Assembly (NCBI GenBank): GCA_018697095.1
Contig: JABHSG010000004.1
Span: 124,001 to 188,000 of the forward strand
Direction: 5' to 3'
Length of the DNA: 64,000 nt
DNA from: an archaeon
Lineage (GTDB): Archaea; Nanobdellota; Nanobdellia; Woesearchaeales; GW2011-AR9
Under the pieces are notes generated by a model that was not told where the DNA came from, did no database searches, and worked only from the letters and a program-made list of their open reading frames with translations. Below are positions 17,447-26,805 of the stretch, one piece after another (within the stretch, counting starts at the first letter, position 1; each line of letters opens with the position of its first letter). A program made the position numbers and the translations under genes.

Positions 17447-18310
17447 ATGCAAATTATCAAAAAAAACAACCTTTTCTACCTCAAACACTCTTTTCGTAAA
17501 TATGGGAAAGTAAAAACTAAACAAAAATACCTTGGAAAAGATGTCCCAAAAAATATTGAACAGGTAAAAGAAGAATTATTTCGTGAATGTTTGCAAGAAG
17601 AACTTTTCAAGAAATTAAAAGACATTCAAAAAAACTTCAAAAAAGAATGGAAAAATTATCCAGAGTCTATTAAAAAAAAAATACTACTAGATCTTGCAAT
17701 TAATTTTACTTATAATACTAATGCAATTGAGGGATCAACTATCTCTTTTGAAGAAACACAAGAATTAGTTAAACATAAAATTGCACCAAACAAACCATTA
17801 AGTGAAGTTCAAGAAACAGTCTCTCATATAGATACTTTTTTTGCAGCACTTCAATCAAAATCACTAATTACAACAAGATTATTATGTGAATGGAATAAAG
17901 GCCTTTTTTTTCAAACAAAGTCAGACATAGCTGGATTATTAAGGGAATATCATGTAAGAGTAGCGGATTATATAGCGCCAGATTGGCAAGACGTTAAAAA
18001 AATGATGAAAAATTTTACTCATTGGATTGAACAAAACCAAAAAATAATGCAGCCAGTGGAGTTCGCTGCACGCGCCCACTACAAATTTGAAAAAATCCAT
18101 CCTTTTGGAGATGGAAATGGAAGAGTAGGAAGGCTCATTATTGCCAAAATTCTAAAACAATCTAAATATCCTATTCTTACAATAAATTACAAAAACAGGC
18201 AATCCTACTATAAAGCATTACAAAAAGATGAAAACAAATTTGTTCAATATTTTCTAAGAAGATACATATCACAATTCAAAAGACATCTAAATAAGCAAAC
18301 CAAAGAATAA
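17447..18310 (+). CDS. Fic family protein (AMP transferase-like)
   Basis: HPFGDGNGRVGR Fic motif and N-terminal TNAIEG inhibitory motif. Confidence 0.95.
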   Translation: MQIIKKNNLFYLKHSFRKYGKVKTKQKYLGKDVPKNIEQVKEELFRECLQEELFKKLKDIQKNFKKEWKNYPESIKKKILLDLAINFTYNTNAIEGSTISFEETQELVKHKIAPNKPLSEVQETVSHIDTFFAALQSKSLITTRLLCEWNKGLFFQTKSDIAGLLREYHVRVADYIAPDWQDVKKMMKNFTHWIEQNQKIMQPVEFAARAHYKFEKIHPFGDGNGRVGRLIIAKILKQSKYPILTINYKNRQSYYKALQKDENKFVQYFLRRYISQFKRHLNKQTKE

Positions 18311-18834: not shown

Positions 18835-19368
18835 ATGGGGGTTTTTAACATGACAGATACAATTCTAAACACAAACTTTGACGTAAAGCGGCAAAGGTTT
18901 AGAAACCAAAATGGTTTCAAAAAAGCAGCAAACTTCAAACTTTTAGACAAAGACAACAAAGAGTTCGAATTAAACAAAATAACCAGTAAGTACACAATTG
19001 TCTATTTTTATCCAAGAGATAATACACCTGGTTGTACAATTGAAGCTAAAAATTTCACAGAAAAATTAACAGAATTCAATAAACTTGACACTACCATTTT
19101 TGGAATTTCTGGCGGCGATGAAAAATCTAAAACTAAGTTCTGTGAAAAACATCAATTAACCATTACTTTATTGAGCGATCCAGATTTCAAAGTTGCAGAA
19201 AGCTACAATTCCTATGGACAAAAAATGTTTATGGGACGAACTTTTCTTGGAATCAAAAGAAACACATTCCTATTAAACCAAGACAAAGAAATAATAAAAG
19301 TCTACGAAAAAGTGTCACCTAAAAAACACATTGATCAATTACTTAGTGATATTAAGGAGATGGAATAA
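18835..19368 (+). CDS. bcp: peroxiredoxin, BCP/PrxQ type
   Basis: VYFYPRDNTPGCTIEAKNF...GISGGDEKSKTKFCEKHQLTITLLSDPDFKVAESY. Confidence 0.93.
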   Translation: MGVFNMTDTILNTNFDVKRQRFRNQNGFKKAANFKLLDKDNKEFELNKITSKYTIVYFYPRDNTPGCTIEAKNFTEKLTEFNKLDTTIFGISGGDEKSKTKFCEKHQLTITLLSDPDFKVAESYNSYGQKMFMGRTFLGIKRNTFLLNQDKEIIKVYEKVSPKKHIDQLLSDIKEME

Positions 19369-19977
19369 ATGAAAAAAATTAACCAAAGGCAAGTAGAATT
19401 TGATTGCGAAGATATTTTCCCAAAACGTTGGTCACCACGTTCACTATCTCCAGAAGTTACAAAAGAAGATTTAATGAAATGTTTTGAAGCAGCAAGATGG
19501 GCACCATCCTCTTACAACGGTCAACCATGGAGGTTTGTCTATGCAATTAATAGGACTCCTGCTTGGGATATCTTAAAACAAATTCCTAATGAATTTAATC
19601 AAAAGTGGGCACTTAATGCTGGAGCATTAGTTCTAACAGTTTCTAGAAAAACTTTCGCTTACAAAAACAAACCGAACATACATTACGCTCATGACACAGG
19701 AGCTGCTTGGATGAGTTTTGCTTTGCAAGCAGAGATGCAAGGGTTATACACTCATGCAATGGCGGGAATCGAATACGAAAAAGCCAAAGAACTTCTAAAA
19801 ATCCCAGAAGATTATGAGGTACTTGCTATGTTTGCCGTAGGTAAAATGGGTAGCAAAGACAGTCTTCCACAAGATTTAAAGGACAAAGAAGCACCTAGTC
19901 AAAGAAAGCCAGTTTCTGAGTTTACTTTTGAAGGAGTTTTCCAAGCCGACAAACCTGAAGAAAAAAAAGACGAATAG
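19369..19977 (+). CDS. nitroreductase family protein
   Basis: RWSPRSLSPEVTKEDLMKCFEAARWAPSSYNGQPWRFVYA. Confidence 0.95.
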   Translation: MKKINQRQVEFDCEDIFPKRWSPRSLSPEVTKEDLMKCFEAARWAPSSYNGQPWRFVYAINRTPAWDILKQIPNEFNQKWALNAGALVLTVSRKTFAYKNKPNIHYAHDTGAAWMSFALQAEMQGLYTHAMAGIEYEKAKELLKIPEDYEVLAMFAVGKMGSKDSLPQDLKDKEAPSQRKPVSEFTFEGVFQADKPEEKKDE

Positions 19978-20030
19978 AAATCAAACAAATTAACAATAAA
20001 ACTAATACAAACAAATGGAGATAAAATAAA

Positions 20031-20630
20031 ATGAAAGAATGTTGTGAAGAACAAAGTTATATGTCAGCCGCAAAAGTAGGTCAGCCAGCACCAAATTTTG
20101 ATGCGCAAGCTTTCCATGAAGGACAAATCAAAAACATCAAACTAAGTGACTATAAAGGAAAATGGGTAGTACTGTTTTTTTACCCAGCAGACTTCACTTT
20201 TGTTTGCCCAACTGAACTTGGAGAAATGGCTGACAATTACGCTAAACTCCAAGAAATGAATGTTGAAGTAATTTCAGTTTCAACAGACACTGCTTTTGTA
20301 CACAAAGCTTGGCATGATGCAACCCCTACGATTGCTAAAATTAAGTTTCCAATGCTTTCAGATCAAACAATGAAAGTTTGTATGGACTACGGAACTTTGA
20401 TTTACAGTGAAGGATTAAGCCTTAGAGGAACTTTCATTATTGATCCTGACGGAATTCTAAAAACTGCTGAAATTAACGATAACAGTATTGGTAGATCCAG
20501 CGAAGAAATTATCCGTAAAATTCAAGCAGCACAATACGTTGCAGCGAATGGCGCAGAAGTTTGCCCAATGAATTGGAAACCAGGTGAATCAACTCTTAAA
20601 CCAGGCCTTGACCTTGTTGGTAAATTATAG
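20031..20630 (+). CDS. 2-Cys peroxiredoxin (AhpC/Prx1 type)
   Basis: FFYPADFTFVCPTELGEMAD...VSVSTDTAFVHKAW...EVCPMNWKPGE. Confidence 0.97.
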   Translation: MKECCEEQSYMSAAKVGQPAPNFDAQAFHEGQIKNIKLSDYKGKWVVLFFYPADFTFVCPTELGEMADNYAKLQEMNVEVISVSTDTAFVHKAWHDATPTIAKIKFPMLSDQTMKVCMDYGTLIYSEGLSLRGTFIIDPDGILKTAEINDNSIGRSSEEIIRKIQAAQYVAANGAEVCPMNWKPGESTLKPGLDLVGKL

Positions 20631-20663
20631 ATAAACTATTATTTTTATTTTATTTTTTTCAAT

Positions 20664-21719
20664 TCAATCACTAGCAGCAAGATATAATGCTTCTCGCTCA
20701 TTCAATTGTTCTACTACGGTATCAATGAATCCTCTGAACCCCTCTGGTTGAGGTTTAGCTCCAGCATAAGCCAAAAAGTGCAAGCCATAGAGCATACTAA
20801 TCATTTCACCAAGTGGTAAAGAACCTTCAGGTAAGTCAGAGCCTGATAAATATCCTCTTTCTTTTTGATTAAAAAACTCAAGTAATCCTCTCCCATGTTC
20901 CTCTAAATCAACTTCTCCAGCACTAAGCAAAACATCATATTCTGGTGAACTTGAACCAATGTACATCCTTGAAATTTGCTGAGTCAAACTAACACCCTCG
21001 TTTAAACCACTATATTGTGTTTCTCTTCTTTCAAGTTCTTCAATAACTAAAGAAAGCTCATCACCACTAGGGACATAATTACCTAATCCTTCCAGTTCTA
21101 CTTTTGCAGATCCAAAAATAATACTTAAACATAAAAGATCACCAAGGCCAGAATTTGAAAAAAAAACATCAAACAAATCACTATCTTCAATATAACTGAT
21201 TTTTCCATCGCGAATTGGTCCATAATCTAATACATTACCTTCATATAACCTCAAAACTGATTGAATTAATTCAGGATCTTGAGAAGAAAAATCCCTATCG
21301 CCTTTTGTACAAAAAAGTTTAACTCCATAACGCTGGTTTGGATTCAAATCATCTAAATATCCACCAATCACTTCTAATCCCCCTAACCAGTTTTCGTCAT
21401 CTTCACTTAGGCCTCTATATCTTATATCAGATTCAAAAAGTTCAAGGTATTTTTTAGAAGCCTTTACTGGTTCACGAACATCAAACCCTAGTGGCAAGTA
21501 AACAACATTGCCTTCAATATCTCTTGCTTCAACTACAGCAAATTCTAAATCAAAATCATCAAGTAATAAGTTATGTGATTCAAAATCTCCATTCAAATTG
21601 TTAAAATAAAAACGCATTGATTTAGCTTCACTAATCACTTTATTTTTTTCATCACCAGTATCATCAGTATCAGTAACACCATAAATTAAATGAACCATTG
21701 CTTCAAACGAATCTATCAT
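20664..21719 (-). CDS. hypothetical protein (351 aa)
   Basis: Long ORF, no recognised motif. Confidence 0.65.
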   Translation of the reverse strand: MIDSFEAMVHLIYGVTDTDDTGDEKNKVISEAKSMRFYFNNLNGDFESHNLLLDDFDLEFAVVEARDIEGNVVYLPLGFDVREPVKASKKYLELFESDIRYRGLSEDDENWLGGLEVIGGYLDDLNPNQRYGVKLFCTKGDRDFSSQDPELIQSVLRLYEGNVLDYGPIRDGKISYIEDSDLFDVFFSNSGLGDLLCLSIIFGSAKVELEGLGNYVPSGDELSLVIEELERRETQYSGLNEGVSLTQQISRMYIGSSSPEYDVLLSAGEVDLEEHGRGLLEFFNQKERGYLSGSDLPEGSLPLGEMISMLYGLHFLAYAGAKPQPEGFRGFIDTVVEQLNEREALYLAASD

Positions 21720-21902
21720 TAACTGCTAAAATCTATCCTACAATAAAAAATAAAGCCAAAAATAACTAAAAATCAACTTCACACAGTTAATTCAAATAAA
21801 AATTAATTTACAATTCCCAAAGCTTTTATACCATAAAATTTCGAAGTAATAATAGATAATTCTAAAAAATAACAAGCAAAATACAAAACGAGGTTAACAA
21901 AA

Positions 21903-22523
21903 ATGACACATGAATTTACATTACCAAAATTACCTTACGCTTACGACGCACTTGAACCATTCTACGATAAACAAACTGTAGAAATTCATCATGACAAACA
22001 TCATGCAGGTTACGTTAAAGGACTTAACAATGCTCTAAAACAACTTGCGGCAGCACGTGAATCAGGAGATTACAAATTAATCAAACATTGGAACCGTGAA
22101 CAAGCTTTTCATGGTGCAGGTCACCTTTTACATACAATGTTTTGGGAAAACATGCGCCCAGGCAAAGAAGATAACAAAGCTACTGGATCTTTACTAGAGA
22201 ACATCGAAAAACACTTTGGTTCATGGGAAGCTTTCACAAGTCAATTTAAAGCAGCAACTGCTGCTGTTGAAGGAAGTGGTTGGGGAGTTCTAGCAGCTTG
22301 TCCACACGGTTCTTTGCACATCTTCGCAGTTGAGAACCATCAAAAAGTTTGGGTACAAGGTTTACGTCCAATTATGGTTTGCGACGTTTGGGAACATGCT
22401 TATTATCTGAAGTACCAAAACCGTAGAGGCGAATGGATTGACAACTTCATGAAAATTGTAAACTGGGATAAAGTGCAAGAACTTTATGATTGCAAGAAAG
22501 AAGAGCAGTGTAAAGAAGAATAA
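21903..22523 (+). CDS. sod: superoxide dismutase (Fe/Mn)
   Basis: LPYAYDALEPFYDKQTVEIHHDKHHAGYV...DVWEHAYYLKYQNRRGEWIDNF. Confidence 0.97.
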   Translation: MTHEFTLPKLPYAYDALEPFYDKQTVEIHHDKHHAGYVKGLNNALKQLAAARESGDYKLIKHWNREQAFHGAGHLLHTMFWENMRPGKEDNKATGSLLENIEKHFGSWEAFTSQFKAATAAVEGSGWGVLAACPHGSLHIFAVENHQKVWVQGLRPIMVCDVWEHAYYLKYQNRRGEWIDNFMKIVNWDKVQELYDCKKEEQCKEE

Positions 22524-22565: not shown

Positions 22566-23196
22566 TAATCATACATACCAGTCATTGCATCATATTTACC
22601 AAAACCAACAACTTCAGTGACATTATTTTCACATACAATAGCTAAGTTAATTCTATCAAATGCTCTATGGCGTTTAAGTTGATAACCTAAAGAGATTAAG
22701 TCTCCATCACGTGTGAAAACTGTAGAATCAGTAGTTTTTGAATAACCAGCGGCAATTGCTAATAACCCCTATCAACAAGCGATGATGAATGCCATCTAAA
22801 AGAGTTGAACAAATCCATTGCATTTGAATAAACACCATGACCATCTTCTAAATCATCTGGGGTAACTAACTTAGCATTTCCTATCAATCCATTTAATGCA
22901 TCCATTAGAAGTCGATTTTTTTTAATTCTTGATTTCAAAGCTTTTTGATTCCCATTTCTTCTATTTTGGGACCTATCAATTTGCCCCCTTCTTTCAACAT
23001 ACCTGTCTCTATGTAAAACACAACTACCAATAAAAGATTTCAATTCAGCAGTAATTCCTTGTGTTAAAGCTAATTCAAAACTACTTAGTGATCTAATATG
23101 TTTGCAAACTTGCTTACTAAGTATTCCACTATCTTCTCTATCGCTTACAACATAACTAGTGTCTAGAAATAATGTGGCATCTTCAATCATAAACAC
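22566..23196 (-). pseudogene. PIN-like domain protein split by an apparent frameshift at the GGGG tract (22766-22769)
   Basis: N-terminal LFLDTSYVV...LTQGITAELKSF in ORF 22759-23196; other frame continues LLAIAAGYSKTTDSTVFTRDGDLISLGYQLKRH...GMYD*. Confidence 0.7.
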
Positions 23197-23242: not shown

Positions 23243-23845
23243 ATGCAAACAAAATCATTCAAATTCAAACCAATTCACTTACTTGCACTTCTAATTCCAA
23301 TAATAATTCTGCTCGCTTCATATAACGCAATCTATCATACAACTACTCTTACACCTAGCCAAGAACTCATAACCTCCTATGTTAACTCACCAAGTCAAGA
23401 GGAAGCACAAACTCTATTGGATCAAGAACCACTTACAATCACAGCTAATGAACTCTCACATTTAGATGACGTAGCCAAGCTTATGAGACTCCTTAACATA
23501 ATTCTAATTGCAAGCATCATAATAGTCACAATAAAAATATACAAACTTCACAAAAACAAGGATTACAAAACCATTAAACAACTCATAATCATAGGATCAT
23601 CCATAACTCTAATCCTCCTATTACTTTTCATTATAGCTACTCAAATAGATTTCACTCAAAGTTTCCAGGTTTTCCACAAACTTCTTTTCCCTCAAGGTAA
23701 TTACCAATTCCCAGAATCCAGTTACTTAATCACTAACCTAAGTGCAGAATTTTTCCAAAACTTAGCAATAAAAATAGGTATTACAGCAGCAATTCTCTCA
23801 ACAATAACTATTCTTACTACAATATTACTACCAAGAAAAGTATAA
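23243..23845 (+). CDS. multi-TM hypothetical membrane protein
   Basis: Several hydrophobic helices (ALLIPIIILLASY, IILIASIIIVTIKIY, SSITLILLLLFIIAT, AAILSTITILTTILL). Confidence 0.65.
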   Translation: MQTKSFKFKPIHLLALLIPIIILLASYNAIYHTTTLTPSQELITSYVNSPSQEEAQTLLDQEPLTITANELSHLDDVAKLMRLLNIILIASIIIVTIKIYKLHKNKDYKTIKQLIIIGSSITLILLLLFIIATQIDFTQSFQVFHKLLFPQGNYQFPESSYLITNLSAEFFQNLAIKIGITAAILSTITILTTILLPRKV

Positions 23846-23894: not shown

Positions 23895-24962
23895 TTAAAC
23901 TTCTCTAGGGTCCCCTATAAATGAATGTATTACTGAAACTCCTCCAGTTCCTTCCAAACTAGGAACACTAAAAGAATCTCCAGCCATTTGTGGATCTTGT
24001 AACTTCAAAGTTTCATAAAGTTCAGGATCACCCTCTTGAATATGTCTATAAATATCTCTTAGATCAAAAGAACCAGCATGAGAACCAAGGTACCTTTCAA
24101 TTGCTCTTGCCAATCTTCCAGTATATGCAGAGTCATCCTTGCCTCCAATTAAAGTTTCATCAGCATACTTTGTGGCAGAGCTTGCTGTAAGAACAAGTGT
24201 TCCTTGTGGGATAGCAGATTTACCTTTTCCTTCTACAAAAACACCAGATTTGCATGCCTCAATAATAACTGCTTTTTTTCTTGCTCTAAGTTTATTAAGA
24301 CGTTTATACAACTCTTTTGGACTAAAAACTTTTTTACCAATTGATACTCCATGTGATCCACCGTGCCCATGAAAACTAAACAAAAAATAACTGTCAGTAA
24401 GTACTTCTGCTTGGAGCCTAGTTAATTCTTCTCTGACATTTTCTCTTGTCGCGCCAGCACCTGTAAGGCTTGTAACAATATAACCTCTTTGCCCAAGTAG
24501 GTCACTGAGTCTTTTTACATCACCTTCAGAAGCTCCAATGTTATCGCTACCAGCACCAACAAGTAGTGCATAATTCTTAGCTTCCCCTAAACTAACTCTG
24601 TACCCAACATCACAAAGTCTAACTCTATCATCCTCATGAAGCCTATACTGAATCTCAGGTTGAATCCTTCGACCATTTAATGTAGTTCCATTTTTACTTC
24701 TAAGGTCTTGAAGGTAAAAATTCCCAGCATTATCTTGAATAATTCCTGCATGATTGCCTGAAACTAGCTTACTCCCCTCGACAACAATTCTTGTTTCAAG
24801 TGAAGAATAAATTGCAGGAATTGGTCTATCAGAACGAAGCCATTCTCCTAGTGGTGAGTGACTTCTTCCAAGTTCAGTGTTCCCAGTAAGATTAATTACT
24901 TGATCTGTAAATTCTCTTCGTAAAGTCAGTTTATTAGTCATTTTATCACTCAATGGCTGCAA
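23895..24962 (-). CDS. FHA domain - caspase-like (peptidase C14 / metacaspase-like) fusion protein
   Basis: FHA: LETRIVVEG..VSGNHAGIIQDNAGNFYLQDLRSKNGTTLNG; caspase: YALLVGAG...DVKRLSDLLGQRGY...SYFLFSFHGHGG...KKAVIIEACKSGVF. Confidence 0.88.
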   Translation of the reverse strand: MQPLSDKMTNKLTLRREFTDQVINLTGNTELGRSHSPLGEWLRSDRPIPAIYSSLETRIVVEGSKLVSGNHAGIIQDNAGNFYLQDLRSKNGTTLNGRRIQPEIQYRLHEDDRVRLCDVGYRVSLGEAKNYALLVGAGSDNIGASEGDVKRLSDLLGQRGYIVTSLTGAGATRENVREELTRLQAEVLTDSYFLFSFHGHGGSHGVSIGKKVFSPKELYKRLNKLRARKKAVIIEACKSGVFVEGKGKSAIPQGTLVLTASSATKYADETLIGGKDDSAYTGRLARAIERYLGSHAGSFDLRDIYRHIQEGDPELYETLKLQDPQMAGDSFSVPSLEGTGGVSVIHSFIGDPREV

Positions 24963-25212: not shown

Positions 25213-25851
25213 GTGGCAAGTTTTATTCGAAAAATTCTCAAGGCTTTAGGGCTTGGATCTTTATTTGGTAGAAAAGATAATGTTAAATTAGGCCTTTACG
25301 GTCCACCAAACGGCGGAAAATCAACTTTAGCTAATCGAATAAGTAAAGATTGGCTTGGCGAAGAGATGTCAACAGTATCACACATTGCTCACGAAACTCG
25401 TGAAATTGTGATGAAAGAACAAATCAATATCACTAATGAAAAAGGTCAAGGTTTAACATTTTCCTTGGTAGATACTCCTGGGATCTCAACTAGAATCGAT
25501 TATGAAGATTTTCTTAAGCGTGGAATGAAAAAATCACAAGCAAAAGCACGTGCTAAAGAAGCAACTAAAGGAGTTATTGATTCAATTAAGTGGCTTGATG
25601 ACATGGACGCTGTTGTTGTAGTTCTAGACTCAACAAAAGACCCGTACAGTCAAGTTAACATTACAATCATTGGAAATTTGCAAGCTAGAAAAATCCCAGT
25701 ACTTATTGTTGCAAACAAAGTTGATCTTAAACGCTCAAATATGGACTTAATTAAAGCTGCATTTCCACAATACGAAGTTGTTGGTATTTCTGCAAAATAT
25801 GGTAAGAACATGAAAGATTTTTACGAAATCTTAATTGACTTTGCCGGGTAA
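25213..25851 (+). CDS. Era/Der-like small GTPase (archaeal family, GTG start)
   Basis: GPPNGGKSTLANRI (G1), DTPG (G3), NKVD (G4). Confidence 0.93.
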   Translation: MASFIRKILKALGLGSLFGRKDNVKLGLYGPPNGGKSTLANRISKDWLGEEMSTVSHIAHETREIVMKEQINITNEKGQGLTFSLVDTPGISTRIDYEDFLKRGMKKSQAKARAKEATKGVIDSIKWLDDMDAVVVVLDSTKDPYSQVNITIIGNLQARKIPVLIVANKVDLKRSNMDLIKAAFPQYEVVGISAKYGKNMKDFYEILIDFAG

Positions 25852-25903
25852 AGTTTATATACAAAAAAATAACTATTGAAACATACAAAGAGGAATCTAT
25901 ATA

Positions 25904-26308
25904 ATGGTTACATTTCAATTCGTCCCATATCACGACATGCAGCACTTGAGTTCAAGTAAACGAATTCAAAAGCTAATTAGTATTGTTAAAAATGAAAAAA
26001 TCGTGGTAATGGAAGGTAGACTTCGTAAAGAAGAAGAAGCAGGCCTAATTGAAGAGACTATGAATTCTGTATCACGTGCTTTCCCAGGGATTGAAATTGG
26101 TGTGATTTATCCAGAAAGTGGAAAATTACAAGGTTTTGAAAAACTAAAAAATAATGTTGTTAATCTTCTTTTAGGTGACCGTCAGGGCTTCACAGTTGTC
26201 GGCCCAGCTAGTATTGTAAAAAAGATAGTGCGTAACCCAGGAAAATTAGAACTCTTCACAGAAGAAGCTAAGGGAAGTAAAACTACCAAAAGACGTCGTA
26301 AAAAATAA
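25904..26308 (+). CDS. DUF2073 family protein
   Basis: Sequence resembles DUF2073; adjacent to GTPase as in many archaea. Confidence 0.8.
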   Translation: MVTFQFVPYHDMQHLSSSKRIQKLISIVKNEKIVVMEGRLRKEEEAGLIEETMNSVSRAFPGIEIGVIYPESGKLQGFEKLKNNVVNLLLGDRQGFTVVGPASIVKKIVRNPGKLELFTEEAKGSKTTKRRRKK

Positions 26309-26406
26309 TTTTTTATAATTTTTCAAGCAAATTCTCAAAAAAAAAACTTTGTAATTACTCTTCTGCTTACACAAATAATAAATACCCTTAACTCTTTTTC
26401 AGTTAC

Positions 26407-26805
26407 ATGCCTCACCAATGTGTAAGATGCGCTGAAATTTATCCTGATGGCGCAAAACAAATCTTGTCAGGATGTTCTTGTGGCGCAAGGCTCTTTATGT
26501 ACATAAAGAAAAAACATCTTGAGGAAGGTAAAAAACTTCTAAACAATCTTTCAGACGGTGAAAAGAAACAAATTGAAGATGATATTTTTGAAATATCTCA
26601 AGTTAGGCAAAAAGACCACGCAGTTGATAGTGGCGACAAACCTGTTGTACTTGATTTCGAATCTATTCGTGTTATGAAACCAGGCTCTTACGAACTTGAT
26701 CTCATAAAGATGTTCAAAAAGAATCCTTTGATCTTTAAACTAGAAGAAGGAAAGTATATGATTGATATTACTCAAGCTTTTGAGAACTCCGGCAAACACA
26801 AGTGA
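26407..26805 (+). CDS. archaeal zinc-ribbon protein (DUF2072-like)
   Basis: CVRCAEIYPDGAKQILSGCSCGARLFMYIKK. Confidence 0.8.
   Translation: MPHQCVRCAEIYPDGAKQILSGCSCGARLFMYIKKKHLEEGKKLLNNLSDGEKKQIEDDIFEISQVRQKDHAVDSGDKPVVLDFESIRVMKPGSYELDLIKMFKKNPLIFKLEEGKYMIDITQAFENSGKHK

Follow-up and report, generated by a model that had tools for sequence, protein, structure and literature searches.

An FHA domain joined to a caspase-fold protease in a reduced-genome archaeon: a candidate for phosphorylation-directed proteolysis

Introduction

The window analyzed here, a stretch of 64,000 nucleotides of archaeal DNA, carries a gene that a preliminary description read as an FHA domain fused to the N-terminus of a caspase-like protease, and thus as a protease gated by a Ser/Thr kinase and possibly serving as a death or stress effector. 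Such an architecture raises the question of what a phosphopeptide-binding module would do for a caspase homologue in a small archaeal cell. To our knowledge, archaeal caspase homologues have rarely been reported. The analyses performed favor, with a probability of roughly 0.55, a reading in which phosphothreonine marks recruit a standalone clan-CD protease through its FHA domain, resulting in phosphorylation-directed proteolysis.

Gene and domain architecture

The features of the gene, referred to below as FHA-caspase, are as follows.

23895..24941, reverse strand: FHA-caspase gene, ATG start, 348 aa (open reading frame, Pfam and homologues)
24582..24941, reverse strand: FHA domain, residues 1-120, beta sandwich (PF00498; AlphaFold strands 2-121; Foldseek)
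24864..24866, reverse strand: Arg26, predicted phosphate-contacting FHA residue (kept in 11/13 FHA-caspases, lost in L008 and L127)
24750..24761, reverse strand: Ser61-Gly-Asn-His64, FHA core motif (Ser61 and His64 in 13/13)
24690..24692, reverse strand: Asn84, residue of the NG motif in an FHA loop (Phe in L005, Tyr in L013)
23952..24575, reverse strand: caspase/hemoglobinase-fold protease, residues 123-330 (NF047832, model, Foldseek, profile against 3bij)
24519..24521, reverse strand: Asp141, putative acidic residue of the S1 pocket (falls on the Asp conserved in metacaspases and GSU0716; not kept in L008 and L013)
24363..24365, reverse strand: His193, predicted catalytic histidine, second His of FSFHGHGG (13/13; aligns with SGHG of metacaspases)
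24258..24260, reverse strand: Glu228, the other putative acidic residue of the S1 pocket (most homologues have Asp here, while G378 shares the Glu)
24252..24254, reverse strand: Cys230, predicted catalytic cysteine of IIEACKSG (13/13; aligns with D-S-C-H-S-G of GSU0716)

An alternative in-frame TTG at 24962, upstream of the ATG, would extend the product to 355 aa (23895-24962, reverse strand). Translation more probably begins at the ATG at 24941, since a TATA-like TTTTTAAAA lies upstream of it and the homologous proteins begin at this position in the 13-row alignment.

Profile searches, structure prediction and structural comparison agree on an FHA domain located N-terminally to a caspase-fold domain, as initially described. 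The FHA domain itself is ordinary: PF00498 matches residues 50-109 with an E-value of 7.4e-15 (55.6 bits against a Pfam cut-off of 20.7), and the window copy possesses the full FHA core, including Gly25-Arg26, Ser61 and His64, and Asn84-Gly85. The AlphaFold2 model, built on a five-sequence alignment (mean pLDDT 72, pTM 0.73), comprises a beta-rich N-terminal domain extending to about residue 121 and an alternating alpha/beta domain starting from residue 123, with low confidence for residues 27-48 and 55-62, beside the expected phosphate site. In Foldseek searches against the PDB, EmbR, CEP170 and the FHA domain of Rv0020c matched the first half (rmsd 2.2-2.7), and legumain, the protease subunit of GPI transamidase (GPI8), GSU0716 and caspase-11 matched the second (E about 1e-6 to 1e-7). 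Across the searches, EmbR and ArnA rank among the best FHA matches. Having two domains, the fusion yields whole-query TM scores of just 0.4-0.5 for the caspase-fold matches. A phmmer search against the PDB divides the protein in the same way: its first half finds FHA proteins, its second half the metacaspase-like GSU0716 (3bij).

The protease domain contains p20-like and p10-like parts in a single chain. Both FSFHGHGG and IIEACKSG, where the preliminary description had placed a His/Cys dyad, are present in the window protein, and the homologues keep both residues, His193 and Cys230 being invariant in all 13 FHA-caspases. Profile alignment places Asp141 and Asp/Glu228 on the metacaspase acidic pair, which we take to be the two positions shaping the basic-P1 pocket of Arg/Lys-cleaving metacaspases.

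Assignment to a peptidase family is less straightforward. The window copy gives no match to Pfam C14 (PF00656) and a marginal one to Peptidase C13 (PF01650, residues 183-273, E 5.2e-5, 23.3 bits against a cut-off of 22.8). It is matched by the NCBIfam caspase model NF047832 (E 3.2e-11, 43.1 bits; the subfamily cut-off of 140 bits is not reached) and by the PADLOC caspase profile (E 3.9e-4). Within the homologue set A1, which has 11 members, NF047832 matches all, C14 matches nine (best E 2e-16), the PADLOC profile eight, and C13 four at E <= 0.01. By profile, the protease sits between C13 and C14, and the family as a whole appears closer to C14, since nine of the 11 members match it. The C14 assignment made at the outset is, on these scores, right through homology and not through the direct score of the window copy.

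The same data bear on a C13 reading, according to which the protein is a maturation protease or transpeptidase resembling legumain or GPI8, and the FHA domain is merely a protein-binding module. It draws on the score of the window copy above the Pfam C13 cut-off, on a legumain-like EAC that replaces DxC, and on legumain and the GPI-transamidase subunit as top Foldseek matches. We nevertheless regard this reading as improbable, given the predominance of C14 over C13 matches in A1, the identity of the best solved relative in profile comparison (GSU0716, 3bij, E 2.7e-13), and the fact that legumain and GPI8 act in the secretory pathway, while the window protein shows no evident signal peptide or membrane segment.

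Conservation and distribution

Of 371 genomes searched within the phylum, 11 gave matches, and a profile search identified ten full-length FHA-caspases in nine of these. A family-level search added two more, G378 (L126) and G389 (L127), both from the family of the window, and a scan of named genomes added one, DeMMO3_27 (L019). The fusion is real and recurrent, these searches giving 13 FHA-caspase proteins in 12 genomes, all from one archaeal phylum and patchily spread. Named relatives with FHA-caspases are Candidatus Woesearchaeota, and the host genome amounts to 1.28 Mb, consistent with the reduced-genome archaeon that had been supposed. The FHA-caspase is the sole FHA protein of this genome, and no second C14 protein was found in it.

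The FHA and caspase halves stay joined across at least six host families, although the homologues share only 22-36% identity with the window protein in the 13-row alignment. Gly25, Ser61, His64, Gly192, His193 and Cys230 are invariant in 13/13. Judged from this alignment, conservation of the dyad and the FHA core at 22-36% identity is far beyond chance. With even the nearest homologue at about 37% identity, synonymous sites are saturated for an estimate of selection by dN/dS. Two unusual features are common to the window copy and G378: HGHG instead of SGHG, and Glu instead of Asp at the second position ahead of the Cys.

In the caspase-domain tree, FHA-caspases do not form a supported clade, but the AU test does not reject a single clade either (p 0.126), so that one fusion event and several are both possible. 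The two G071 copies (L008 and L013) are the outliers on this tree. A strict-pattern collection scan matched four archaea and, over residues 107-255 only, one bacterial caspase. Separately, a caspase-like reading frame of Kofleriaceae (Myxococcota; L023:5853-6917) is followed by frames that look deaminase-like and ubiquitin-like by eye, and this locus is a possible bacterial conflict locus. FHA domains also occur in giant open frames of related archaea, of about 12,045 aa (G001:C21), 7,979 aa (G066:C43, L052), 6,282 aa (G084:C25, L041) and 5,699 aa (G276:C12, L057).

Kinases and probable phosphatase of the host

The host genome encodes two tandem Hanks-type kinases (G000:C1, about 497.1-499.0 kb; L017:1417-3393). 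The second has intact VAIK, HQDVKPSN and DFG motifs. The first keeps the Lys, a catalytic-loop Asp and DFG and is otherwise degenerate (loop FNDAKRRN); it may be a pseudokinase that works with the second. Bud32-like and ABC1 kinases are also encoded. A PP2C-like protein, encoded 10 kb past the right end of the window (C4, about 198.1-199.1 kb), scores below the Pfam cut-off and displays the typical motifs SDIGRRDMNQD and DGVGG, making it a probable phosphatase.

On the scale of the phylum, Hanks kinases are found in 34/51 genomes with FHA genes versus 83/320 others (Fisher p 5e-8; 371 genomes, with completeness, size and kinship uncontrolled). For genomes with FHA-caspases the association is weak, 6/9 versus 31% (p 0.03, likewise uncontrolled for completeness, size and kinship). 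A classical Hanks kinase was not detected in three of 11 FHA-caspase genomes: the sole kinase detected in G108 and in G299 is a Bud32-like protein of about 205 aa, and G168 shows none. Ser/Thr kinases and a probable PP2C that could serve the proposed gating are thus present in the genome. None of them is adjacent to the FHA-caspase gene, all being distant from it, and this, like the three genomes in which no classical kinase was detected, speaks against gating by a kinase.

These genomes, together with the loss of Arg26 or Asn84 in some members, are what one would expect if the FHA domain were phospho-independent, or acted as an intrachain inhibitor or dimerization lid, so that phosphorylation would not be the input. 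The invariance of Gly25, Ser61 and His64, the retention of Arg26 in 11/13 members and the co-occurrence of FHA genes with Hanks kinases in the phylum make this explanation unlikely for the family. Some members have probably lost phosphate binding through these substitutions, and phospho-reading may not be universal in the family.

Genomic context

Neither kinases nor phosphatases turned up beside the window gene or the examined homologues. Around ten homologues no conserved operon partner (kinase, phosphatase, toxin or nuclease) was found. Their neighbors are unrelated among loci and, by eye, mostly housekeeping or unnamed, including YchF, SRP54, EF-1alpha and ribosomal proteins; the YchF GTPase, present in two genomes of the same family, was the only repeated neighbor noticed.

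Several genes near the FHA-caspase deserve mention in their own right. A forward-strand stretch of about 3.7 kb (18835-22523) holds genes for two AhpC/TSA peroxiredoxins, one nitroreductase and one Fe/Mn superoxide dismutase; a role linked to this oxidative-stress cluster was considered and dropped, as the cluster is not repeated at the homologues. A small integral membrane protein (23243-23845, forward strand) matches Lit, a lipoprotein intramolecular transacylase (PF07314, E 1.4e-17), which is unexpected in an archaeon. Genes for a GTPase, OapB and OapC (origin-associated protein) occupy 25213-26805 on the forward strand, divergent from the FHA-caspase. A 145-aa reading frame whose product opens with a PIN-like FLDTSYV and matches neither Pfam nor PADLOC profiles is located at 22759-23196 on the reverse strand, and a Fic/DOC family protein (PF02661, E 6.8e-20) at 17447-18310 on the forward strand.

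The genomic context bears on the suggestion that the protein is a death or anti-virus effector, in which infection or stress would activate a kinase, the FHA domain would recruit the protease, and cleavage of host proteins would stop or kill the cell. This suggestion draws on the caspase model of EACC1 conflict systems, NF047832, weakly matched by every A1 member, on the eight members matched by the PADLOC caspase profile, and on the patchy, accessory-gene-like distribution (11/371 genomes). However, neither EACC1 nor a STAND NTPase, TPR-CHAT or other defense partner was recognized by eye around the ten homologues, where housekeeping or unnamed genes prevail, and no EACC1 partner was recognized among the neighbors listed for the window gene. 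PADLOC gave no match on three near neighbors of the window gene, searches of phage, plasmid and viral-contig collections gave no match, and NF047832 scores fall under the subfamily cut-off (43 versus 140 bits for the window copy). The death-effector role offered in the preliminary description finds no support in the surroundings covered, and we give it only a small chance.

Proposed function

It is attractive to suppose that the FHA-caspase is a standalone cytosolic cysteine endopeptidase of clan CD, similar to orthocaspases, and that its FHA domain is a phosphothreonine binder. One of the cell's own Hanks-type kinases would mark a target protein or its own activation loop, and the FHA domain would dock the protease at this mark, where local concentration or dimerization could switch on the His193/Cys230 dyad. 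The protease would then cut the marked protein or its neighbor, probably after a basic residue, and the PP2C phosphatase would reset the system. Phosphorylation would probably decide where the FHA-caspase acts, and its physiological role would be regulated proteolysis, such as stress response or protein turnover, rather than suicide. Taken more broadly, an archaeal lineage may use a phosphothreonine-directed caspase homologue, with kinase signaling selecting proteins for site-specific cleavage, a proposition that we hold tentatively and at somewhat less than even odds.

Conservation of the link to a phosphopeptide reader points to kinase signaling as the likely input of an archaeal caspase homologue. 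A single protein and two candidate kinases, all encoded by one genome, make the mechanism testable, and it is relevant to the way in which phosphorylation came to be coupled with caspase-type proteolysis prior to eukaryotic cell death.

Comparison with known systems

In the main texts of the papers searched, no description of the FHA-caspase architecture was found, and no priority is claimed for it. The same search gave no description of a phospho-dependent proteolysis circuit in archaea. The main text of a 2012 survey of 671 prokaryotic metacaspases contains no mention of FHA and reports archaeal caspase homologues in Euryarchaeota only (PMC3501461). Extra domains of metacaspases are described as commonly C-terminal (PMC5756287), and in papers on conflict systems caspase and FHA figure as effector domains listed separately (PMC7159879, PMC8195603).

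Orthocaspases, or prokaryotic metacaspases (C14; Geobacter GSU0716, 3bij, and Microcystis MaOC1), share with the FHA-caspase family the single-chain caspase/hemoglobinase fold, the SGHG His and DxC Cys motifs and, likely, the acidic S1 pair, whereas the N-terminal FHA is the extra domain here. EACC1-associated caspases (Kaur et al. 2020, PMC7159879) provide the closest curated caspase model, the one matched throughout A1, and belong to membrane-associated conflict systems of bacteria that consist of two genes, with EACC1 as the partner. FHA-caspases differ from them in that no such partner was recognized nearby and the window copy scores far under the NF047832 cut-off. Legumain and GPI8 (C13) are the best whole-fold matches and resemble the window copy in its EAC motif, but they act in another cellular compartment and are devoid of FHA, and the FHA-caspase family matches C14 more often.

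A precedent for a signaling peptidase with an FHA domain exists in PrsW peptidases fused to FHA (PMC3482391), although PrsW is an unrelated membrane peptidase family. On the signaling side, the nearest counterparts are FHA regulators that dock on Hanks kinases, namely EmbR with PknH and GarA/OdhI of Actinobacteria and ArnA of Sulfolobus. In these systems the FHA domain likewise reads kinase output, and the outputs are transcription, metabolic or archaellum control, as opposed to the proteolysis proposed for the FHA-caspase.
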